A DNA stretch of 53,443 nt, taken from contig CACZIO010000016.1 in assembly GCA_902781215.1 (NCBI GenBank), positions 1 through 53,443 on the forward strand. The letters run 5' to 3'. The number at the start of each line of letters is the position of its first letter. Position 1 is the stretch's first letter. Below are positions 18,486-40,901 of the stretch, piece after piece. The notes under the pieces are model-generated. The model was given only the letters and a program-made list of their open reading frames with translations, was not told the origin of the DNA and made no database searches. A program made the translations under genes and the position numbers. The DNA comes from an uncultured Lachnospiraceae bacterium (lineage in GTDB: Bacteria > Bacillota > Clostridia > Lachnospirales > Lachnospiraceae).

Positions 18486-18553
18486 TGATGAAAACTCCGC
18501 ATTGTTCCGCGCTTACACGCTCTCACAATGCTGCAAACATTCGGATTCCGCTC

Positions 18554-18580
18554 GTTTTGCGCAAAAGGCATGCGCAAAAC
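18554..18580. repeat. Hairpin between the two repeat copies
   Basis: GTTTTGCGCA (18554-18563) and TGCGCAAAAC (18571-18580) form a perfect 10-bp stem around AAAGGCA. It sits midway between copies A and B. Confidence 0.7.
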
Positions 18581-18613
18581 GGCTCCTTCCTCATGTTTGT
18601 ACGTTCGCCAGAT

Positions 18614-18649
18614 GTGCGTAAGCGTTTGTGCAAGCACACGCTTACGCAC
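18614..18649. repeat. Palindromic repeat, copy B
   Basis: GTGCGTAAGCGT pairs with ACGCTTACGCAC, with GTGC/GCAC inside. It is nearly identical to copy A over 34 bases. GATGAAAAC (18487-18495) and GTTTTCATC (18662-18670) form an outer inverted pair around the whole block. Confidence 0.75.
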
Positions 18650-18668
18650 GCCTGGCTCACTGTTTTCA

Positions 18669-26361: not shown

Positions 26362-26567
26362 GGAGTGCTTCGCACAAAATCATTTTGCGGAGTGTATTAC
26401 ATCCCTGTCAGGGATGGAGTTCTGAGAGCTGCCTGTCGGCACACATGGGTTCGGGTCTCGCGCAATGGAAACCTGCGAACCGTGTCAGGATGGGAACATA
26501 GCAGCACTAAGCGGGACCTTTCATGTGCCGCGAGGGTGCCTGGCTCTGCGGCCGGCCGGCAGCTTTC
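26362..26567 (+). ncRNA. ffs: Signal recognition particle RNA (4.5S/6S-type)
   Basis: RNA core of the signal recognition particle, bound by Ffh. The S-domain tip is diagnostic: GTCAGG-ATG-GGAA-CAT-AGCAGC at 26484-26505, a symmetric loop capped by a GGAA tetraloop, closed by GTG/CAC. GGCACACATG (26438-26447) pairs with CATGTGCC (26522-26529). GAGAGCTGCC (26424-26433) pairs with GGCAGCTTTC (26558-26567). Helix 6 is seen as GGTTCG/CGAACC. The promoter shows that transcription begins about 60 bases before this core. That 5' part includes CATCCCT-GTC-AGGGATG and would be an Alu-like domain, but the usual Alu consensus is not clear to me. The 3' end is uncertain. Confidence 0.88.
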
Positions 26568-33060: not shown

Positions 33061-35097
33061 TCATGCCAGGGCCGCCCGGTTCTTGTCCGCGTGCATGTGC
33101 TCCATGGCCAGCTCGTCCTCGATCGTGACGGCGCAGGCGCCCTCGACGAAATACTGACGGTACCAGACCAGGAAGGTGTAGACCGTCCAGATGTGGCGGC
33201 TGTAGTCCTCTTTGCCGGCGCGATGGGCGTCCAGCAGCTCCATGAGGGCATCCGTGTGGAAAAACCGCGCCGCCTCGGGGCTGCAGAAGGCTTTTTTCAC
33301 AATATTGTAGTACTTGTCCTGGCGCAGCCAGATGCGGATGGGGACCGGGAAGCCCAGCTTTTTCTTCTCGGCGGCCGCCGCGGGCATGTAGCGGTGAGCC
33401 GCCTCGCGGAAGGCGGTCTTGGTATTGGTCTCGCTGATCTTCTCCTCCAGAGGGAGGTCCTTCGCGATCATGTAGACACCGCGGTCCAGGAAGGGGACGC
33501 GGCTCTCGAGGCCGTGGGCCATGCTCATCTTGTCGGCCTTGAGGAGGATGTCCCCCTGCAGCCAGAAGTTGAGGTCGATGTACTGCATCTTCTCCGTGTC
33601 GGAGAGGTGGCGGGCCCTGCGGTAATAGGGACCGGTCAGCTTTTTCGGCTCGGAGTCCGGCGAGGAATAGCGCAGGACTTTCGCGCGCTGCTTCATATTG
33701 AAGACATTGGCGTTGCCGATGAAGCGCTCCTCCACAGACTTTGCGCCGCGCAGGACGAAGCCCTTGCCCTTGGGATGGCCGGGGATCTTCTCCGCCGCCG
33801 CGGCCGCCGCCCTGCGCAGGCCTGCCGGGATCTTCTGATAGGCATCGAGGGAGAAGGGCTCGTGGTAGATCACATAGCCGCCGAACAGCTCATCCGACCC
33901 CTCGCCGGAGAGGATGACCTTGACATGCTTCGAGGCCTCGCGGTCGACGAAATACAGGGCAGCCGCCGAGGCGTCTGCCAGGGGCTCGTCCATGAAATAC
34001 TGGATGCGGGGAAACTCCTGCCAGTATTCCTCCGTGCTGATGATCTTGCTGATGTTCTCGATCCCGACCTCTTTGGAGAGGGCCTGGGCGTAAGGGATCT
34101 CGTTGTAGGTCTCATAGTCGAAGCCGACCGTAAAGGTCTTTGACCCGCCGAAATTGGCCGCGACATAGGAGGAGTCGACGCCGCTGGACAGGAGGGAGGC
34201 GACCTCCACATCGCTGACCATGTGGTAGCGGATGGATTCCTGCACCGCCTTGTCGATCTCATTCACCAGCCGTTTGTGGGCGGCCTCGGTGCGGGCGTTC
34301 TGTGCCTCCTGCCCGCCTTTCCCGGTCTGTCCCTCGCCCGTTTTCGCAGAAAGGGCACCGGTCCTGCCGGCCGCCTTTGCGCCCCTTGCGCTTTTCATTG
34401 CCGGGCTGCCGCCCCGGGGCGTGAGCATGGGGTCGAAATAGCGGCGCATGCGGAGCTTCCCGTTTTTCCACTTCATGCAGTGGCCGGCTGGCAGCCTGAA
34501 AATGCCTTTAAAGAAGGTCTCGGGCAGGACCGAGTACTGGAAGGACAGATACTGCTCCAGAGCCTCCAGATTGACCTCGCGCGTATAGCCGGGATATTCC
34601 AGTATGCTCTTGATCTCGGACCCGTAGACAAACTGGCCGTCGATCTCCGCGTAGTAGAAGGGCTTGATCCCGAACATATCGCGGGCGCCGAAGAGCTCCT
34701 GCTTCTGTGTGTCCCAGATCACGAAGGCGAACATGCCGCGCAGGCGGTCCAGGATCTTCGTCCCGTACTCGCTGTAGCCGTGCAGCAGGACCTCAGTGTC
34801 CGAATTGGTCTGGAAGGTATGTCCCTTGATCTTCAGGTCCTCCCGCAGCTCCCGGTAGTTATAGATCTCTCCGTTGAAGGTGATGACCAGCCGTCCGTCG
34901 GCGGTCGCCATGGGCTGGTCGCCCCCCTTCAGATCGATGATCGACAGACGCCGGAAACCCATGGAGATCCCGTCGTCCATATATTGTCCCGCGCCGTCGG
35001 GCCCGCGGTGGATGATCCGGTTCATCATGCCGGTCAGCACCTGCCGCCTCTCATCCTCTCCCGCCGCAGCGCCGGTAAATCCGCAAATTCCACACAT
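33061..35097 (-). CDS. asnB: Asparagine synthetase, glutamine-hydrolysing
   Basis: Makes asparagine from aspartate, ATP and glutamine. The 678-aa protein starts MCGICGFTG with the catalytic Cys2 of the class II amidotransferase domain (about 1-210), followed by a synthetase domain with LSSGVDSSY, a variant of the SGGxDS pyrophosphate motif. It is some 60 residues longer than common AsnB because of a Gly/Lys/Ala-rich linker (about 230-280: MKSARGAKAAGRTGALS and KTGEGQTGKGG). AGGAGGAATATT precedes the ATG at 35095-35097. Downstream come the three small ORFs. No T-box was found; the leader holds the alternative hairpins at 35256-35295. Confidence 0.95.
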   Translation of the reverse strand: MCGICGFTGAAAGEDERRQVLTGMMNRIIHRGPDGAGQYMDDGISMGFRRLSIIDLKGGDQPMATADGRLVITFNGEIYNYRELREDLKIKGHTFQTNSDTEVLLHGYSEYGTKILDRLRGMFAFVIWDTQKQELFGARDMFGIKPFYYAEIDGQFVYGSEIKSILEYPGYTREVNLEALEQYLSFQYSVLPETFFKGIFRLPAGHCMKWKNGKLRMRRYFDPMLTPRGGSPAMKSARGAKAAGRTGALSAKTGEGQTGKGGQEAQNARTEAAHKRLVNEIDKAVQESIRYHMVSDVEVASLLSSGVDSSYVAANFGGSKTFTVGFDYETYNEIPYAQALSKEVGIENISKIISTEEYWQEFPRIQYFMDEPLADASAAALYFVDREASKHVKVILSGEGSDELFGGYVIYHEPFSLDAYQKIPAGLRRAAAAAAEKIPGHPKGKGFVLRGAKSVEERFIGNANVFNMKQRAKVLRYSSPDSEPKKLTGPYYRRARHLSDTEKMQYIDLNFWLQGDILLKADKMSMAHGLESRVPFLDRGVYMIAKDLPLEEKISETNTKTAFREAAHRYMPAAAAEKKKLGFPVPIRIWLRQDKYYNIVKKAFCSPEAARFFHTDALMELLDAHRAGKEDYSRHIWTVYTFLVWYRQYFVEGACAVTIEDELAMEHMHADKNRAALA

Positions 35098-35255
35098 AAT
35101 ATTCCTCCTGTGCAGTTCTCCTGTTACAGTACATGCCGCCTCGGACCCCGGGATGGTCTGCGTGCCTGCAAAGCCTCCTGCGATGTAATCACAGGAATAC
35201 AGTTGCATGTCTCCAGCCCGAAACCCCGCGTTCGGCAGCTTCCTGTTATATAGAC

Positions 35256-35295
35256 GCATCCGGCATCTTGCCGGTTTACAGCCCGCGCCGGATGC
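35256..35295 (-). promoter_or_regulatory. Inverted repeat in the asnB leader
   Basis: GCATCCGGC (35256-35264) and GCCGGATGC (35287-35295) are perfect complements. CCGGC-AAGAT-GCCGG forms an overlapping, mutually exclusive hairpin. The region is 160-200 bases before asnB. A switch or a regulator site is possible; no known riboswitch was seen. Confidence 0.4.
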
Positions 35296-35354
35296 AATAC
35301 CATTATTAGAACGCATTTTCCGCGCGGCCGCAAGGAAAATCTATCACCCATTCC

Positions 35355-35423: not shown

Positions 35424-36230
35424 ATGAGCCAGTCTGTCAGGAGCACCCTGCTCGCATTTGAGAAACTGCACAACATCCGCGACCTGGGCGGCATGCGGGC
35501 CGCAGACGGCCGGACCATCCGTCCGGGGCGCCTGATCCGGGGCGGCCACCTGGTGGATCTGGTGGAGGCGGACGCCCGCCAAATGGAGGAAATGGTCTCT
35601 GTCATCGTCGATTTCCGGACACCGGAGGAGGTCGGAAGGCAGCCTGACCGCCAGTTTCCGGGGGTCGAATACCACCATCTCCCCGCCGTGGAATCGCTCA
35701 CCGAAGGCATCTCCCGCGAGGAGGAGTCGGACCGGGACGTCATCTCCCGCCTCATGTTCCTGCCGGACAAGTCCAGAGAATATATGGCGGGCCAGTACAG
35801 GATCTTCGCGACCAGCGACCGTACCGCCGCCCAGTACGCGAAATTCATCGACCTGCTGACCGTCCCGCGTGAACGCGCCGTCTTCTGGCACTGCACGGCC
35901 GGCAAGGACCGGGCAGGGCTCGGCGCCATCTTCACCGAGGAGATCCTGGGCGTTCCGCGTGAGGACATCATCGAGGATTACCTCTATACCAACGAATGCC
36001 TGGCGGAGGATGTCCGCATGCTGTCCTCCTGGGTCAAAAAAAATGCCGGGACCAACGATCCTGTCGTGGACCGTGCCCTCGGCTACCTCTTCGGCGCGGA
36101 TGAATCCTATATCGAGACCTTCTACAACACCATTGACAATGACTTCGGCGGCATGGATGCCTTCCTGCGGGACCGCCTGGGCGTAACGGATGAAAAGAAA
36201 GCTGCGCTCCGGTCCCTCTATCTGACCTGA
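35424..36230 (+). CDS. Tyrosine/serine protein phosphatase (DSP/IphP type)
   Basis: Cysteine-based phosphatase. The 268-aa protein has HNIRDLGGMR near the N terminus (16-25), a RGGHLVDL segment, and the P-loop HCTAGKDR with catalytic Cys157 and Arg163, as in the Y_phosphatase3 (IphP) family. AAGGAG lies before the ATG at 35424; an earlier in-frame ATG lies upstream of the predicted transcript start. Its targets (phosphotyrosine or phosphoinositide) are unknown. It is a monocistronic gene, divergent from asnB. Confidence 0.9.
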   Translation: MSQSVRSTLLAFEKLHNIRDLGGMRAADGRTIRPGRLIRGGHLVDLVEADARQMEEMVSVIVDFRTPEEVGRQPDRQFPGVEYHHLPAVESLTEGISREEESDRDVISRLMFLPDKSREYMAGQYRIFATSDRTAAQYAKFIDLLTVPRERAVFWHCTAGKDRAGLGAIFTEEILGVPREDIIEDYLYTNECLAEDVRMLSSWVKKNAGTNDPVVDRALGYLFGADESYIETFYNTIDNDFGGMDAFLRDRLGVTDEKKAALRSLYLT

Positions 36231-36292
36231 AAGAGCCGAACAGACGCTGTCACGCGCTGCCAATGTCTGCTGAATCTGCAGCGGGCGTAAAA

Positions 36293-36397
36293 TCAGACTC
36301 AGATCCGGCGGCTGTCCTCTTCCCCTGTCAGACTCAGATCCGGCAGCTGCCCTCTTCCCCTGTCAGACTCAGATTCGGCGGCTGCCCTCTGCCCCTG
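36293..36397. repeat. 35-bp tandem repeat, three copies
   Basis: TCAGACTCAGAT begins copies at 36293, 36328 and 36363, exactly 35 bases apart, with few changes (GGCGGCTG, GGCAGCTG). There is no spacer between copies, so it is not CRISPR. It lies between the phosphatase gene and the terminator of the ncRNA candidate. Confidence 0.9.
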
Positions 36398-36440
36398 TGA
36401 ATACTTGCTCAATAAGTCATCGGCAAGCTGAAATTCCCGC

Positions 36441-36526
36441 AAAAAAAGAATTCCTGTACACAACAAGAGAAGGGATGTTGTCCGGCGTTTCTCGCCTGTG
36501 ATCAACATCCCTTCTCAGGAATTCTT
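36441..36526 (-). terminator. Two-part intrinsic terminator of the ncRNA candidate
   Basis: On the minus strand AAGAATTCCTG (36516-36526) pairs with CAGGAATTCTT (36446-36456), and AGAAGGGATGTTG (36503-36515) with CAACATCCCTTCT (36468-36480). An 11-base bulge (36457-36467) interrupts the 3' arm. A GGCG-AGAAA-CGCC hairpin caps it, and seven U follow (36441-36447). It is far larger than a normal terminator. Confidence 0.85.
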
Positions 36527-37303
36527 GTCCAATGGTTCATACCTCCGTATTCAATTATTTTTTGATTCCCCGTTTTTCCTGATCCAACTTTATTTCTCAC
36601 CTGCATTTCTCGTCTGCAGATGGTACCCGGAACTCCTTTCATCACGTTCGCAATGCTGTTCGAATGAGAACTGTTTATTGCGGGGGATGTACTGGTTCAC
36701 TTTTCATTGAATATGGATTGAAACGGTTCCTCTTCTCCAATCATCCGTTCTGCAGATTTATCTACTATCTTCTTCCTCTTCATCCTTCTTCTTCCGGGAT
36801 CCGGTTGGACTCATCACTTCCTCGGGACCGGAATATCGTTTTCCGAGTTTTTCGCTGCTGCGAATCTGCAGGATCGACATCCTGTCAGTACACCTCTGTG
36901 CAGCTTTCGAAAATAATATTAATCACGAACGTATTGCAAACCTGCCCCTTCACGAACTCTCTGCAATATTCGGATGATCTTCGATACGAACTTTATAGAG
37001 CCAAGACTACTTAGATAATTGGTCCGTACCTTCCTTTCCTGGATTTTTACAGTTCAGTCAAAAGTTTTTAAAAGTGTCCTTGTGGGAAAAATTTAATTGT
37101 ACTTCGGACCGTACCTCCTTTACCCAGATTTCAATGGTGCTGCAAACAGATTGATCACTTCCACAAATTATGAAACTCATCAAATCTATTTAGAATAAAA
37201 TACTTCAAGACGTTTTAAACAACCAACTGCTCCTTGATCTAACAACAGTTTCAATCGATCGACAATTGTATTTGTTTACCCGGGTAACGTCTATCGCTTT
37301 GAT
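36448..37303 (-). ncRNA. Candidate large structured noncoding RNA (about 860 nt)
   Basis: No protein gene is credible on the minus strand here, yet a strong promoter (37310-37337) and a terminator (36441-36526) frame it, and base composition is clearly AT-richer than the neighbours. Visible minus-strand helices (plus coordinates): 37286-37292 with 37208-37214; inside it 37272-37277 with 37217-37222; inside that 37246-37250 with 37225-37229; 37179-37187 with 37148-37155; 37105-37110 with 37021-37026; 36962-36968 with 36932-36938; 36869-36874 with 36879-36884; 36851-36855 with 36860-36864; 36843-36847 with 36821-36825; 36745-36749 with 36722-36726; 36615-36622 with 36598-36605. RNAs of this size and make-up include OLE, GOLLD, ROOL and HEARO; I cannot assign it to one. 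The 5' helices nest perfectly, a good sign of real folding. Confidence 0.55.
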
Positions 37304-37309
37304 GTGTTT

Positions 37310-37337
37310 ATTATAGCATTTTATCTTGAATTGTCAA
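37310..37337 (-). promoter_or_regulatory. Strong promoter of the ncRNA candidate
   Basis: Minus strand TTGACA (37332-37337), 16-base spacer, TATAAT (37310-37315) with an upstream TGn (extended -10). Start near 37303. It is among the best promoter matches in the window. The 13-mer AAAATGCTATAAT also occurs at the AGCS pseudogene promoter (39189-39201). Confidence 0.85.
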
Positions 37338-37416
37338 TCAAATATCTGTCTGTTTTCTTAATTGTCGCATTTTTCAGACATTTTAGAAAAATATCGGTTT
37401 CTGACTTTTTCTGCTT

Positions 37417-37472
37417 GATCTCAGTGGGGGAAGACCCCCGCTTCTATATGATCTCAGTGGGGAAGACCCCCG
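37417..37472. repeat. Two copies of a GGGGGAAGACCCCC hairpin repeat
   Basis: GATCTCAGTGGGG(G)AAGACCCCCG occurs at 37417-37440 and 37450-37472, a 33-base period. Each copy forms a GC-rich hairpin with an AAGA loop. It resembles a REP-type element. The region 37473-37642 shows no gene. Confidence 0.8.
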
Positions 37473-37642
37473 TTTCCATAAGCGGTGGGATCAACGCTGC
37501 AGCTTGCCCGTCTCAGCTTTCTTTCACCCCGGCCAAACCCCGGCCGGAATCCGGGCCATCCTGTCCGTCCTGTCAGCGCCGCTCTCTCTGCCGTCCAGGC
37601 CTGTATGAAGATGTGTACTCATAACAAAGAACACAAAGAACA

Positions 37643-37673
37643 AATGCTGCCCCGGGCAGCCCGGGACAGCATT
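37643..37673 (-). terminator. Terminator after the AGCS pseudogene
   Basis: Minus strand AATGCTG-T-CCCGGG-CTG-CCCGGG-G-CAGCATT, followed by TGTTCTTTGTG. The stem is strong and the tail T-rich but broken. Confidence 0.55.
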
Positions 37674-37752
37674 CTGTCACACATGTTTCACTTCCACACA
37701 TCCGCGCCGGCCAAAGTGCTGATGATCCGTCCGGATGCTGGATCTGCTCCTC

Positions 37753-39144
37753 TCACTTCCACACATCTGTATCGGTCAGGCCGATGTTGGATTCGTGGAA
37801 GACGGGGTCCCTGCCGGCGGCCTTCTGCTTCTCGTAGTCGTCGAGGGCGGCGAAGGCGATGCGGCCCAGGAGCAGGATGGCGATGATGTTGACGACGGCC
37901 TCCAGGCCCATGGTGATGTCGGCGAGGCTCCAGGCGACGTCCAGGCTGTTGCCGGCACCGATGAAGACCATGACGGCCGCGCAGATGCGGAAGATGGTCA
38001 TGACCGTCTTGTTCTTCGTGATAAAGAGGATGTTGGCCTCCGCGTAGAAGTAGTTGCCGATGATGGAGGTGAAGGCAAAGAGGCAGACGATCACGGTCAC
38101 GAAGTGGATGCCGACGGGGCCGATGACGCGGGCGACGCACTGCTGCAGGAGCGGGATGCCCGAGTAGCCGGTGTCAGCCCAGTCCCCGGTCAGGAGGATC
38201 AGGAAGACGGTCGTGGAACAGATCAGGAGGGTGTCGATGTAGACCGAGATGATCTGGGCCAGGCCCTGCTTGGCGGGGTGCGAGACGGTCGCGGAGGCGG
38301 AGGCGTTGGGGGCGGAGCCCATGCCGGCCTCATTGGAGAAGAGGCCGCGCTTGATGCCCAGGACCATGCAGGAGCCCGTGAAGCCGCCGAAGATGGACTT
38401 GAAGTTGAAGGCATCTGCCATGACAATGGCCAGGACACCCGGCAGGCGGGTGATGTTGGTCAGGATGACAAAGATGCCGATCAGGATATACAGGCCGGCC
38501 ATGAGCGGGACCAGCACGGAGGAGATCTTGCCGATGAAGTCTCCTGCGAAAAAGATGATGCAGGAGAAGACCGCCAGGATGATGCCGATCACGGTGGGCA
38601 GGATGCTGTGTTCGAGATCGGGCACATAGACGCCGAAGGCCGAGACGATGTTGTAGGACTGCAGGCCGTTGAAGCCGAAGGCAAAGGTCGCGATCAGCGA
38701 GATGGCGAAGACGATGCCCAGCCAGCGGGCGTGGAGGGCGCGCTCAATGTAGTAGGCCGGCCCGCCCTTGAAGGAATCCCCCTCCTTTTTCTTGTAAATC
38801 TGGGCCAGGGTACTCTCGACAAAGGCCGATGCGGAACCCAGGACCGCCATGAGTCACATCCAGAAGGCCGCCCCGGGGCCGCCCAGGATGATGGCAGTCG
38901 CGACGCCGGCCATATTTCCGGTTCCCACGCGGGAGGCTGTGGCGATCATCAGGGCCTGGAAGGAGGAGACGCCCTTATCACCCTCCTTTTTTTCCATCAT
39001 ACAGGCCAGGGCGTCACGGAAGCGCCGGATCTGGACGAAACGGGTCCGCACGGTAAAGTAGATGCCGCTGCCGGCCAGCAGGTAGATGAGCAGCCAGGTA
39101 TAGAGCACATCGTCGATCTGTGTCAGAATACTCGCAAAGTCCAT
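37753..39144 (-). pseudogene. AGCS sodium:amino-acid symporter interrupted by an in-frame TGA
   Basis: Reading from the ATG at 39142-39144, the protein follows the AGCS family through SRVGTGNMAGVATAI and GGPGAAFWM. Codon 97 (38854-38856) is TGA where the intact paralogue at 24094-25506 has TGG (FWMWISALL). After the TGA the same frame continues LMAVLGSASAFVEST to the normal end at 37753, including LFSNEAGMGSAPNASA. So one base (G to A) breaks an otherwise intact gene of 463 codons. It may be a recent pseudogene, a sequencing error, or a read-through case. A second start at 38850 could make the C-terminal part, but without the first three helices it should not transport. Confidence 0.85.
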
Positions 39145-39557: not shown

Positions 39558-40901
39558 TCAGCGCTTGTTGCTGCGCTTCCAGATGTGCATCTTCTCGGCT
39601 TCCTTGATGAGCTCATCGCGGAAATCCGGGTGCGCCAGGCTGATGAGCGCCTCTGCGCGCTGCCAGGAGCTGAGGCCCTTGAGGTTTTTGATTCCATATT
39701 CGGTCACGACGTACATGACGTTGGGACGGGTGTCGGTCACGATGCTGCCGGGCGCCAGGGTCGGGCGGATGCGGCTGGCAATGCTGCCGTCTTTCTTCTT
39801 GAATGTCGAAGACATGCAGAGGAAGGTCTTGCCGCCGGGAGCGCCGTAGGCGCCGAGGACGAAGTCGAGCTGGCCGCCTGCGCCAGAGATCTGTTTTGTA
39901 CCCGAGCTCTCGGCGTTGATCTGGCCGAAGAGGTCCATGTCGACCGCGTTGTTGATGGAGATGAAATTGTCCAGGTTGGCGACGCGGAAGTAGTGGTTGA
40001 CATAGTCGACGGAGGCGGACTTGATGGCCGGGTTCCTGTCGAGGTAGTCGTACATCTTCCTGGTGCCCGCGCCGAAGGCAAAGGTCTGCAGGCCGCGGTC
40101 AAAAGGCTTGCACATACCGGTGATCTTGCCCTTCTCCGCCATGTCCACGAAGGCGTCGACATACATCTCTGTGTGAACGCCCAGGTCCTTGAGGTCGGAC
40201 TCGGCGATCATCTTGCCGATGGTGTTGGGCATGCCGCCGATGCCGAGCTGGAGGCAGGCGCCGTCCGGGATCTCCTTGACGACGAGCTCCGCGACCGCCT
40301 TGTCGACGTCCGTGCCGGGCTTTGCGGGCGGCATGGCATCGATGGGCTCGTTGTCTGTCTCGACGATCATATCGACATCATCGATGTGGACATAGGCAGA
40401 CCGGTCGCCGTAGATGACCGGCATGCTCTCGTTGACCTCGACGATGACCTTTTTCGCGATCTTGATGGCGGCATAGGAGTGGCTGGCGCTGGGGCCGAAG
40501 TTGAAATAGCCCTTGTCATCCATGGGGCCGACCTGAAGGATGGCTACATCGATGGATTTGATGTTTTCCAGATACCAGCGGGGAAGCTCGGAATACTTGA
40601 GGGCGCCGTAGAAGGCGAAGCCCTTCTCGCAGGCCTTGCGCTCGATGCCGCCCATGTGCCAGCTGTTCCATGTCATATGCGCTGCAGGATCCTCGATCTG
40701 GAAGATCGCCGGCTCATGCATAAGGATGCCGCCGTAGAAATTCACGTCATAGAGGTCCGGAAGCCTCTTGGCGAGCTCCTTATCCACTGCCCTGGGGGTC
40801 GTCGCGGTCCAGCTGTAGTCAACCCAGTCACCGGATTTGACGACGGCCGCCGCCTGTGCCGCGCTCACAAGTTTCTGCCTGTACTGATCCTGATAGCTCA
40901 T
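39558..40901 (-). CDS. Butyryl-CoA:acetate CoA-transferase-like enzyme
   Basis: Class I CoA-transferase that moves CoA between a short-chain acyl-CoA and acetate; the closest pattern I know is the butyrate-forming enzyme of Roseburia-type bacteria. The 447-aa protein shares [54 protein letters not shown] and the C-terminal [20 protein letters not shown]. The catalytic glutamate is Glu245 in HTEM. 4-Hydroxybutyrate and propionate CoA-transferases are close relatives, so the acyl substrate is not certain. GAGGAGGAAAATGT precedes the ATG. It is a single-gene unit with its own terminator. No other butyrate-pathway gene is in the window. Confidence 0.9.

Follow-up and report, generated by a model that had tools for sequence, protein, structure and literature searches.

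The bar minigenes of phage lambda consist of a strong Shine-Dalgarno (SD) sequence, a few codons, and a stop codon, and to our knowledge the known minigenes are single elements within mRNAs. CsrB-type sponges carry several copies of one motif in one RNA, and in type III toxin-antitoxin systems a toxN-like gene lies directly downstream of the RNA. We are not aware of any RNA that seems made to offer ribosomes a row of landing sites while encoding no protein.

The RNA described here lies in a 53,443-nucleotide stretch of DNA from an uncultured Lachnospiraceae bacterium (the window). Like CsrB and RsmZ, it holds many copies of one short binding motif, but the motif includes a reading frame and a stop, and its apparent partner is the ribosome. 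With bacterial minigenes and mini-ORFs (lambda bar, and mg2 of axe-txe in the part of PMC8708949 available to us), its modules share a strong SD, few codons, and a stop, as well as, by our proposal for this RNA, an effect exerted through ribosome engagement rather than through a product. It differs from minigenes in being a stand-alone RNA, in which the full motif marks one to seven modules, many of them with a nonstart first codon. All four minigene features (SD, start codon, very short frame, and in-frame stop) occur in the AUG and UUG modules, and upstream modules often lack the start codon. The extended SD sites of S. aureus, as covered by the accessible portion of PMC13009471, also pair past the core SD toward the start codon and also go with near-cognate starts; however, those sites start real proteins, whereas the frames here stop after only a few codons and their SD extension has a 2-nt bulge.

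OLE, ROOL, GOLLD, and HEARO RNAs are likewise stand-alone and hundreds of nucleotides long. OLE RNA also touches the SD/anti-SD system, carrying an anti-SD mimic that binds bS21 according to the available part of PMC12054373. In contrast to these four classes, the RNA of the window has no Rfam match above threshold, shows weak global covariation, and is modular and variable in length. Its conserved motifs are SD-like and not anti-SD-like, unlike the anti-SD mimic CCUCCU of OLE, which is paired in P6.

A predicted stand-alone unit on the minus strand

A sequence-only reading of the window had proposed a near-consensus promoter, an AT-rich stretch free of minus-strand ORFs above 60 codons, and a two-part terminator with seven U, and all three were confirmed. 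The promoter scan placed an extended −10 promoter (TTGACA-N16-TATAAT) at 37310 to 37337 on the minus strand, with 12 of 12 matches to the sigma-70 consensus and TG before the −10 box. Four promoter-like sites occurred in 36200 to 37700 (1.7 ± 1.2 in shuffles), and only this one matched at 12 of 12 positions. The predicted RNA (36441 to 37303, minus strand) is ∼863 nt long with its 5' end near CAUCAAA, and its GC content is 40.9%, compared to 59.5% for the whole window. No minus-strand ORF of at least 60 codons lies wholly inside it; a 69-codon ORF starts at 36508 and ends beyond the terminator. Protein coding on the opposite strand was rejected as well, the candidate being a 116-codon plus-strand ORF with no Pfam match. 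The rho-independent terminator (36441 to 36516, minus strand) has a perfect 14-bp stem (36503 to 36516 with 36467 to 36480), an outer stem, and seven T at 36441 to 36447; it was absent from the output of the promoter/terminator scan because its loop is longer than the scan allows. Together, the promoter, some 860 nt lacking any gene-sized ORF, and the strong terminator make up a predicted stand-alone unit, from which we infer transcription. A search for a second copy in the window's own genome gave only matches of 15 to 29 bases.

The RNA appears to be new. A search with the Rfam 15 covariance models returned nothing at gathering score for the window RNA, and no family reached that score at nine loci of relatives. 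At E values up to 10, six matches were obtained in 36300 to 37500, all below gathering; the best of them, Guanidine-II, lies outside the RNA and on the other strand. GOLLD, ROOL, OLE, and HEARO, to which the RNA had been likened from its sequence, were not among these matches, so that likeness is not borne out. No tmRNA, with tRNA-like fold and tag frame, was found in the window. No RNA of such build turned up in Rfam or among the titles and abstract openings listed by searches of the open literature; in the accessible part of PMC11109978, the terms Lachno*, Roseburia, and Butyrivibrio were not found.

Several other elements were recorded in the window. A Clostridiales-1 RNA (RF01699) lies at 18489 to 18668 on the minus strand, and a small bacterial SRP RNA lies at 26449 to 26548 on the plus strand. 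Just past the terminator, between the RNA and a convergent phosphatase gene, are three tandem 35-nt repeats (36293 to 36397); relative to the reference copy, the other two show 94% and 91% identity. Two 30-nt copies with 77% identity, around GATCTCAGTGGGG(G)AAGACCCC, lie at 37409 to 37471, immediately upstream of the promoter; this is the site of the plus-strand Guanidine-II match, which is subthreshold (22 bits, cutoff 32). The sodium:alanine symporter gene (37753 to 39144) is split by a single in-frame TGA after FWM (38854 to 38856, minus strand), and both halves match Na_Ala_symp; a pseudogene, a polymorphism, or an assembly error would account for the split.

Relatives, neighborhood, and folding

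Relatives of the RNA were sought with blastn in 99 genomes, the window's own included, and 23 matched. Near full-length copies (812 to 871 nt, 69 to 71% identity) were present in eight other genomes of the genus and split matches in two further ones; the remaining blastn matches were short pieces. A short form, which keeps the promoter, the terminator, and the first and last modules but lacks the middle, was present in 11 genomes (L019 to L029); in L019 it measures 143 nt from predicted start to hairpin end. At several short-form loci, a protein resembling acetyl-CoA hydrolase/transferase (by eye) ends ∼200 nt before the first motif, and the window's acetyl-CoA hydrolase/transferase gene is at 39558 to 40901. 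Six long relatives share a downstream asparagine synthase gene, which in the window is at 33061 to 35316. From these shared neighbors, short and long forms would occupy equivalent places. The RNA ranges from about 150 to 860 nt across relatives, and because sister species carry a form of ∼150 nt at apparently the same locus, length is not its essence; the large size earlier taken as its defining trait does not hold.

The spread of the family was assessed by pattern searches. The 19-mer AAGGAGGTACGGWCCRAAG occurred in 10 of 299 family genomes, drawn at about one per genus, and the reversed control gave none. In the genome collection it marked 88 stretches, of which 80 were used throughout and the other eight (L159 to L166) solely as a hold-out. 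By name (judged by eye), one of the 80 listed loci is clearly foreign (Pedosphaera, L136) and probably due to chance, two are named only "bacterium," one is labelled Sarcina (another family's name), and the rest carry the names of Lachnospiraceae, its genera, or wider Clostridia; L080, from the cultured commensal Butyrivibrio sp. LB2008, is one of the loci that carry the RNA. A looser pattern gave 87 copies in 55 of the 299 genomes, against 23 copies in 23 genomes for the reversed control (hand counts), so the RNA is far from universal. Across 246 genomes of the order, this pattern gave 18 matches in 14 genomes, compared to 8 for the reversed control (hand count). Outside Lachnospiraceae, clear arrays were seen in two genomes of one family, f11 (L203 and L204); L200 and L202 look like coding sequence, L198, L199, and L201 each show a lone copy, and this reading covered the matches other than those in G465 and G496. 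On this evidence, the family almost certainly exists, with related RNAs predicted across Lachnospiraceae and in a further family of the same order, and it is apparently undescribed.

In the counts given here and below, L136 was excluded from the frame, spacing, RGAGGTA, neighbor, promoter, first-codon/bare-SD, 16S module, CodY-box, and last-module counts and kept in the motif specificity counts and the 16S gene-start controls. L175, which is the window again, was excluded from the spacing, RGAGGTA, first-codon/bare-SD, 16S, seed-copy, and last-module/hold-out counts and kept in the promoter and CodY-box counts. L198 to L202 were excluded from the first-codon/bare-SD and 16S counts and kept in the RGAGGTA frame count.

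The most shared neighbor family, response regulators, was found beside 17 of 79 loci, at varied distances within the DNA retrieved around them, and the next family beside 8. In the window, the downstream neighbor is a convergent tyrosine phosphatase gene, and the other neighbor is the Na/Ala symporter gene. The absence of a common neighbor and the convergent gene in the window speak for a trans-acting RNA. A cis-acting leader or attenuator was rejected on the same counts, with no conserved same-strand downstream gene and no neighbor family beyond 17 of 79 loci. These counts bear equally on the idea that the RNA is the antitoxin of a type III toxin-antitoxin system or some other tandem-repeat RNA belonging to a mobile or defense element, which would account for tandem units of 50 to 70 nt before a terminator. 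No toxN-like gene lies directly downstream in the window, where the neighbors are the phosphatase and symporter genes; elsewhere the case was judged by the lack of a shared neighbor. The missing partner gene counts against a toxin-antitoxin RNA. A mobile element was rejected, since the window RNA, used as the sole query rather than the modules of other species, gave no blastn match to phages or plasmids at 1e-5, and the single IMG/VR viral-contig pattern match (L167) reads as GC-rich chance. We regard an origin of either kind as extremely improbable.

The sequence-only reading had suggested a possible ornate structured RNA with nested helices. Its 5' domain (37208 to 37292, minus strand) does contain the base complementarity for three nested helices, and the 7-bp outer helix (37286 to 37292 with 37208 to 37214) is paired in 98.6% of cells and nearly invariant. 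As structural evidence the nest did not stand: it showed no covariation beyond shuffles, with one two-sided pair, a level reached in 413 of 500 shuffles. The broader claim of structure fared unevenly. The fold was more stable than 20 dinucleotide shuffles (z of −3.6), and 10 helices picked from the RNAalifold consensus, a selection that favors those helices, held seven pairs with two-sided changes, compared to 2.2 in shuffles (reached in 0 of 500). Slid controls for these helices gave up to four such pairs, further pair types were not above shuffles (127 of 500), and the full RNAalifold consensus of 10 long homologues (125 pairs, 9 with compensatory change) had a covariation term of +0.56, which is no overall support.

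The best supported structure, judged from its sequence contexts, is a predicted hairpin, CUGCA-GACGAGAAA-UGCAG, at 36601 to 36619 on the minus strand; elsewhere the same loop sits on different, still pairing stems. All 20 distinct contexts have at least three consecutive pairs next to the loop, 16 have five to eight, and several are of quite different sequence; the exact loop occurs at 28 of the 80 listed loci. At two loci, L129 (motif +432) and L181 (motif +429), the 3' terminator-like hairpin itself has GACGAGAAA as its loop, in addition to the copy before the first motif. Kissing between GGWCC motifs was discarded on inspection by eye, since the copies within one RNA frequently lack complementarity to each other.

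These stems, varied yet pairing, together with the selected helices that covary within the genus and the z value of −3.6, are what a structured RNA would lead one to expect, one in which, as in an OLE-like ribonucleoprotein, the SD-like motif and the GACGAGAAA hairpin serve folding or protein binding and the starts and stops are by-products. The anti-SD mimicry and bS21 binding of OLE (PMC12054373, in the part available) offer a precedent. Such an RNA would explain neither the in-frame stops of all three types nor the start codon of the last module at the right distance (see below), and overall covariation is unsupported (+0.56) in an RNA that varies from about 150 to 860 nt. We consider a purely structural role unlikely.

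An extended SD module with a very short frame

The sequence-only reading had overlooked what the family shares, namely, repeated modules of an extended SD and a mini-ORF. Each module consists of RGGAGGUA-CGG-UCC-R with a very short frame behind it, usually closed by a stop after one to five codons. In the window, module 1 (37093 to 37120, minus strand) is AAGGAGGTACGGTCCG followed by AAG TAC AAT TAA, with a nonstart first codon; module 2 (37011 to 37034, minus strand) is GGAAGGTACGGACCA followed by ATT ATC TAA; and the final module (36515 to 36546, minus strand) is GGAGGTATGAACCA followed by TTG GAC AAG AAT TCC TGA (MDKNS), with a stop that overlaps the terminator stem. The motif is nearly specific to these loci, with 153 copies in 118 kb of RNA-strand regions and 3 in 1.08 Mb elsewhere. 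One of these three is in L133, where a second full module (GGAGGTACGGTCCA AAG TAC AAG TAA) lies 2143 nt downstream of the first motif on the same strand and contig, possibly in a second RNA gene nearby.

The frame, taken from where the AUG stands in the last module, is closed by a stop far more often than the other two. An in-frame stop within six codons was found in 121 of 139 distinct copies (79 loci), compared to 39 and 33 in the other frames, and the stops were UAA in 76, UGA in 29, and UAG in 16. Copies starting with AAG behaved in the same way (66 of 71, against 15 and 18). When only RGAGGTA was required, the stop was in frame in 137 of 178 copies, compared to 57 and 53; in the eight hold-out stretches, in 13 of 16 copies, compared to 5 and 6; and among the seed copies of 29 loci, obtained with another pattern, 23 stopped within seven codons, compared to 13 and 6. 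First codons among 148 copies were AAG (65, a count partly chosen by the search pattern), AUG (47), UUG (12), ACA (6), AAA (5), CCA (4), AUC (4), and others (5); an AUU first codon goes with the GGAAGG form of the motif. AAG is a nearly inactive, very poor start codon, and stops behind it may therefore mark a signal at the RNA level; compare the 71 copies with a stop at codon 4, of which 37 have ACN as codon 3. The last frame in the window's genus translates as MDKNS or MDKNH, its codons varying synonymously (AAU/AAC, CAU/CAC, AAG/AAA, and UCC/UCA).

Among 108 loci, 28 have one full motif, 52 have two, and 28 have three to seven. None of the 105 distinct distances between successive full motifs was below 50 nt, while 24 were 50 to 54 nt and 14 were 55 to 59 nt. 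Bare RGAGGT[AGT] sites gave 6 of 137 spacings below 50 nt, of which three seem to come from the context of the GACGAGAAA hairpin. L190 has six modules at 51 to 53 nt, five of which are AUG-UAC-ACA-UAA, and in L171 six modules at 54 to 57 nt are accompanied by a last AUG frame ahead of a U-rich terminator; because some arrays are tandem duplications, not all spacings are independent. The mRNA footprint of a 30S complex extends from about −35 to +19, or ∼54 nt, and the 50-nt limit would therefore be consistent with a single 30S subunit docked on each module. Several copies of one start-region-like motif per RNA, as in CsrB-type sponges, would also suit a sponge for regulatory RNAs or for a CsrA-like protein that recognizes translation start regions. 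Such a sponge leaves the stop codons and the spacing unexplained and has no known partner, and we think it very unlikely.

The extension of the motif is complementary to the 3' end of 16S rRNA. The consensus would form 9 bp, a 2-nt bulge, and 6 bp (15 bp, −20.6 kcal/mol), and the extension past the core SD gained a mean of 5.7 kcal/mol over 150 modules, compared to 2.1 at ordinary gene starts (128, selected for GGAGG) and 3.6 once the bases downstream in the modules had been shuffled. The 16S end GGCUGGAUCACCUCCUUUC was found in 2 of 12 genomes searched, both single-contig assemblies, and not in the window's own; perhaps rRNA genes are missing from the other 10 assemblies. In the window, the full duplex is present in module 1 only (−19.9 kcal/mol), with values of −12.7 for module 2 and −14.2 for the last module, and pairing is imperfect in many modules of the family. 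Pairing energy alone proves nothing, since 200 overlapping stretches of the GC-rich window reach −17 kcal/mol or better, and it was rejected as a detector for want of specificity. Ribosomes probably bind the modules.

Flanking elements and a proposed ribosome-docking array

The last frame of the RNA usually adjoins a hairpin. Among distinct last AUG or UUG modules, 49 of 62 had a stem of at least 8 bp starting at the stop codon, compared to 367 of 2,000 random positions; in most of the other 13, the motif caught may not be the RNA's last frame. The last stop also adjoins a hairpin in L203 of family f11 (read by eye). A variant last frame, MKL(T/L/Q/K)(I/E)IH behind a diverged SD, GAAGGUG, was noted by eye at the 3' ends of L115, L112, L132, and L142, where it is one codon longer in L142; L058 reads as L115, and the hairpin after its frame is whole.

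This junction is the basis of the chief alternative to a ribosome-docking array, in which the last mini-ORF controls the adjoining terminator. A ribosome ending there would cover the 5' arm of the hairpin and allow read-through, the RNA would end when ribosomes are few, and upstream modules would set the local ribosome supply, as in an attenuator-like sensor. The placement of the stop in 49 of 62 modules and in L203 fits such a sensor. However, no neighbor family lies beside more than 17 of 79 loci, the next gene downstream in the window is convergent, and the upstream modules with nonstart codons are unexplained. Control of the terminator is in our estimate as unlikely as the purely structural role considered above.

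Upstream of the first motif, TTGACA was present in 90 of 94 distinct regions, where the promoter pattern itself asks for TTG[AT]C[AT]; the pattern had no match in 7 of the 80 listed loci (L136 included), searched over at most 600 nt ahead of the first motif matched. The window also has a CodY-box-like element, AAATGTCTGAAAAAT, at 37369 to 37383 on the minus strand, which matches AATTTTCWGAAAATT at 12 of 15 positions. Matches of at least 12 of 15 were found in 43 of 77 nonredundant upstream regions, compared to 5.1 (maximum, 12) in dinucleotide shuffles, and matches of at least 13 of 15 in 17 regions, compared to 0.6 (maximum, 3). Twenty-six of the 43 boxes lie at −45 to −47, −67, or −75 to −79 from the −35 box, positions one or two helical turns apart, and 17 lie elsewhere. 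Of 12 genomes tested, 11 encode CodY, among them the window's own; the exception is from family f11. The box suggests control by nutrient status.

The sequence-only reading had found a real new RNA and read it as an ornate fold, whereas the trait shared by the family is an array of putative ribosome-docking modules. Our best reading, to which we assign a probability of roughly 0.45, is that this array engages 30S subunits without making protein. A strong promoter would yield a stand-alone RNA of docking modules, each of which would offer the 3' end of 16S rRNA an unusually long SD duplex. At a nonstart first codon (AAG, ACA, or AUU), a 30S subunit would dock, rarely start, and stall or leave; at a true AUG or UUG, a peptide of two to five residues would be made. 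Because the frame ends after one to five codons, a starting ribosome would end at once and could rebind the same site, and renewed starting on AUG and UUG modules is probable since the SD is within reach of the stop. Ribosomes re-initiate on minigenes with a strong SD without dissociating, as reported in the available part of PMC8708949. In S. aureus, extended SDs accompany or direct noncanonical start codons (PMC13009471, in the portion accessible to us), which makes low levels of starting at AUU- or AUC-type codons plausible and at AAG or ACA less so.

The distance of at least 50 nt between full modules would give each of them room for one 30S initiation complex, and the last mini-ORF would end at the terminator hairpin. 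The RNA would in this way occupy 30S subunits, initiation factors, or both while yielding no protein, with the net effect that translation capacity is buffered or sensed; we put sequestration as its function at slightly under even odds. A more specific version, an "RNA ribosome rack," is doubtful but would amount to a new translation regulator: one 30S subunit would be parked per super-SD module at footprint spacing, decoy first codons would block starting, stops would end any escape, and CodY control would set how many ribosomes are held back.

If ribosomes are bound in this way, the Lachnospiraceae, a large family of gut commensals, would gain an RNA-based buffer or sensor of translation capacity. 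Such buffering would perhaps be tied to CodY, a sensor of amino acids and GTP, and the decoy codons would bear on how the 30S subunit chooses its start site.
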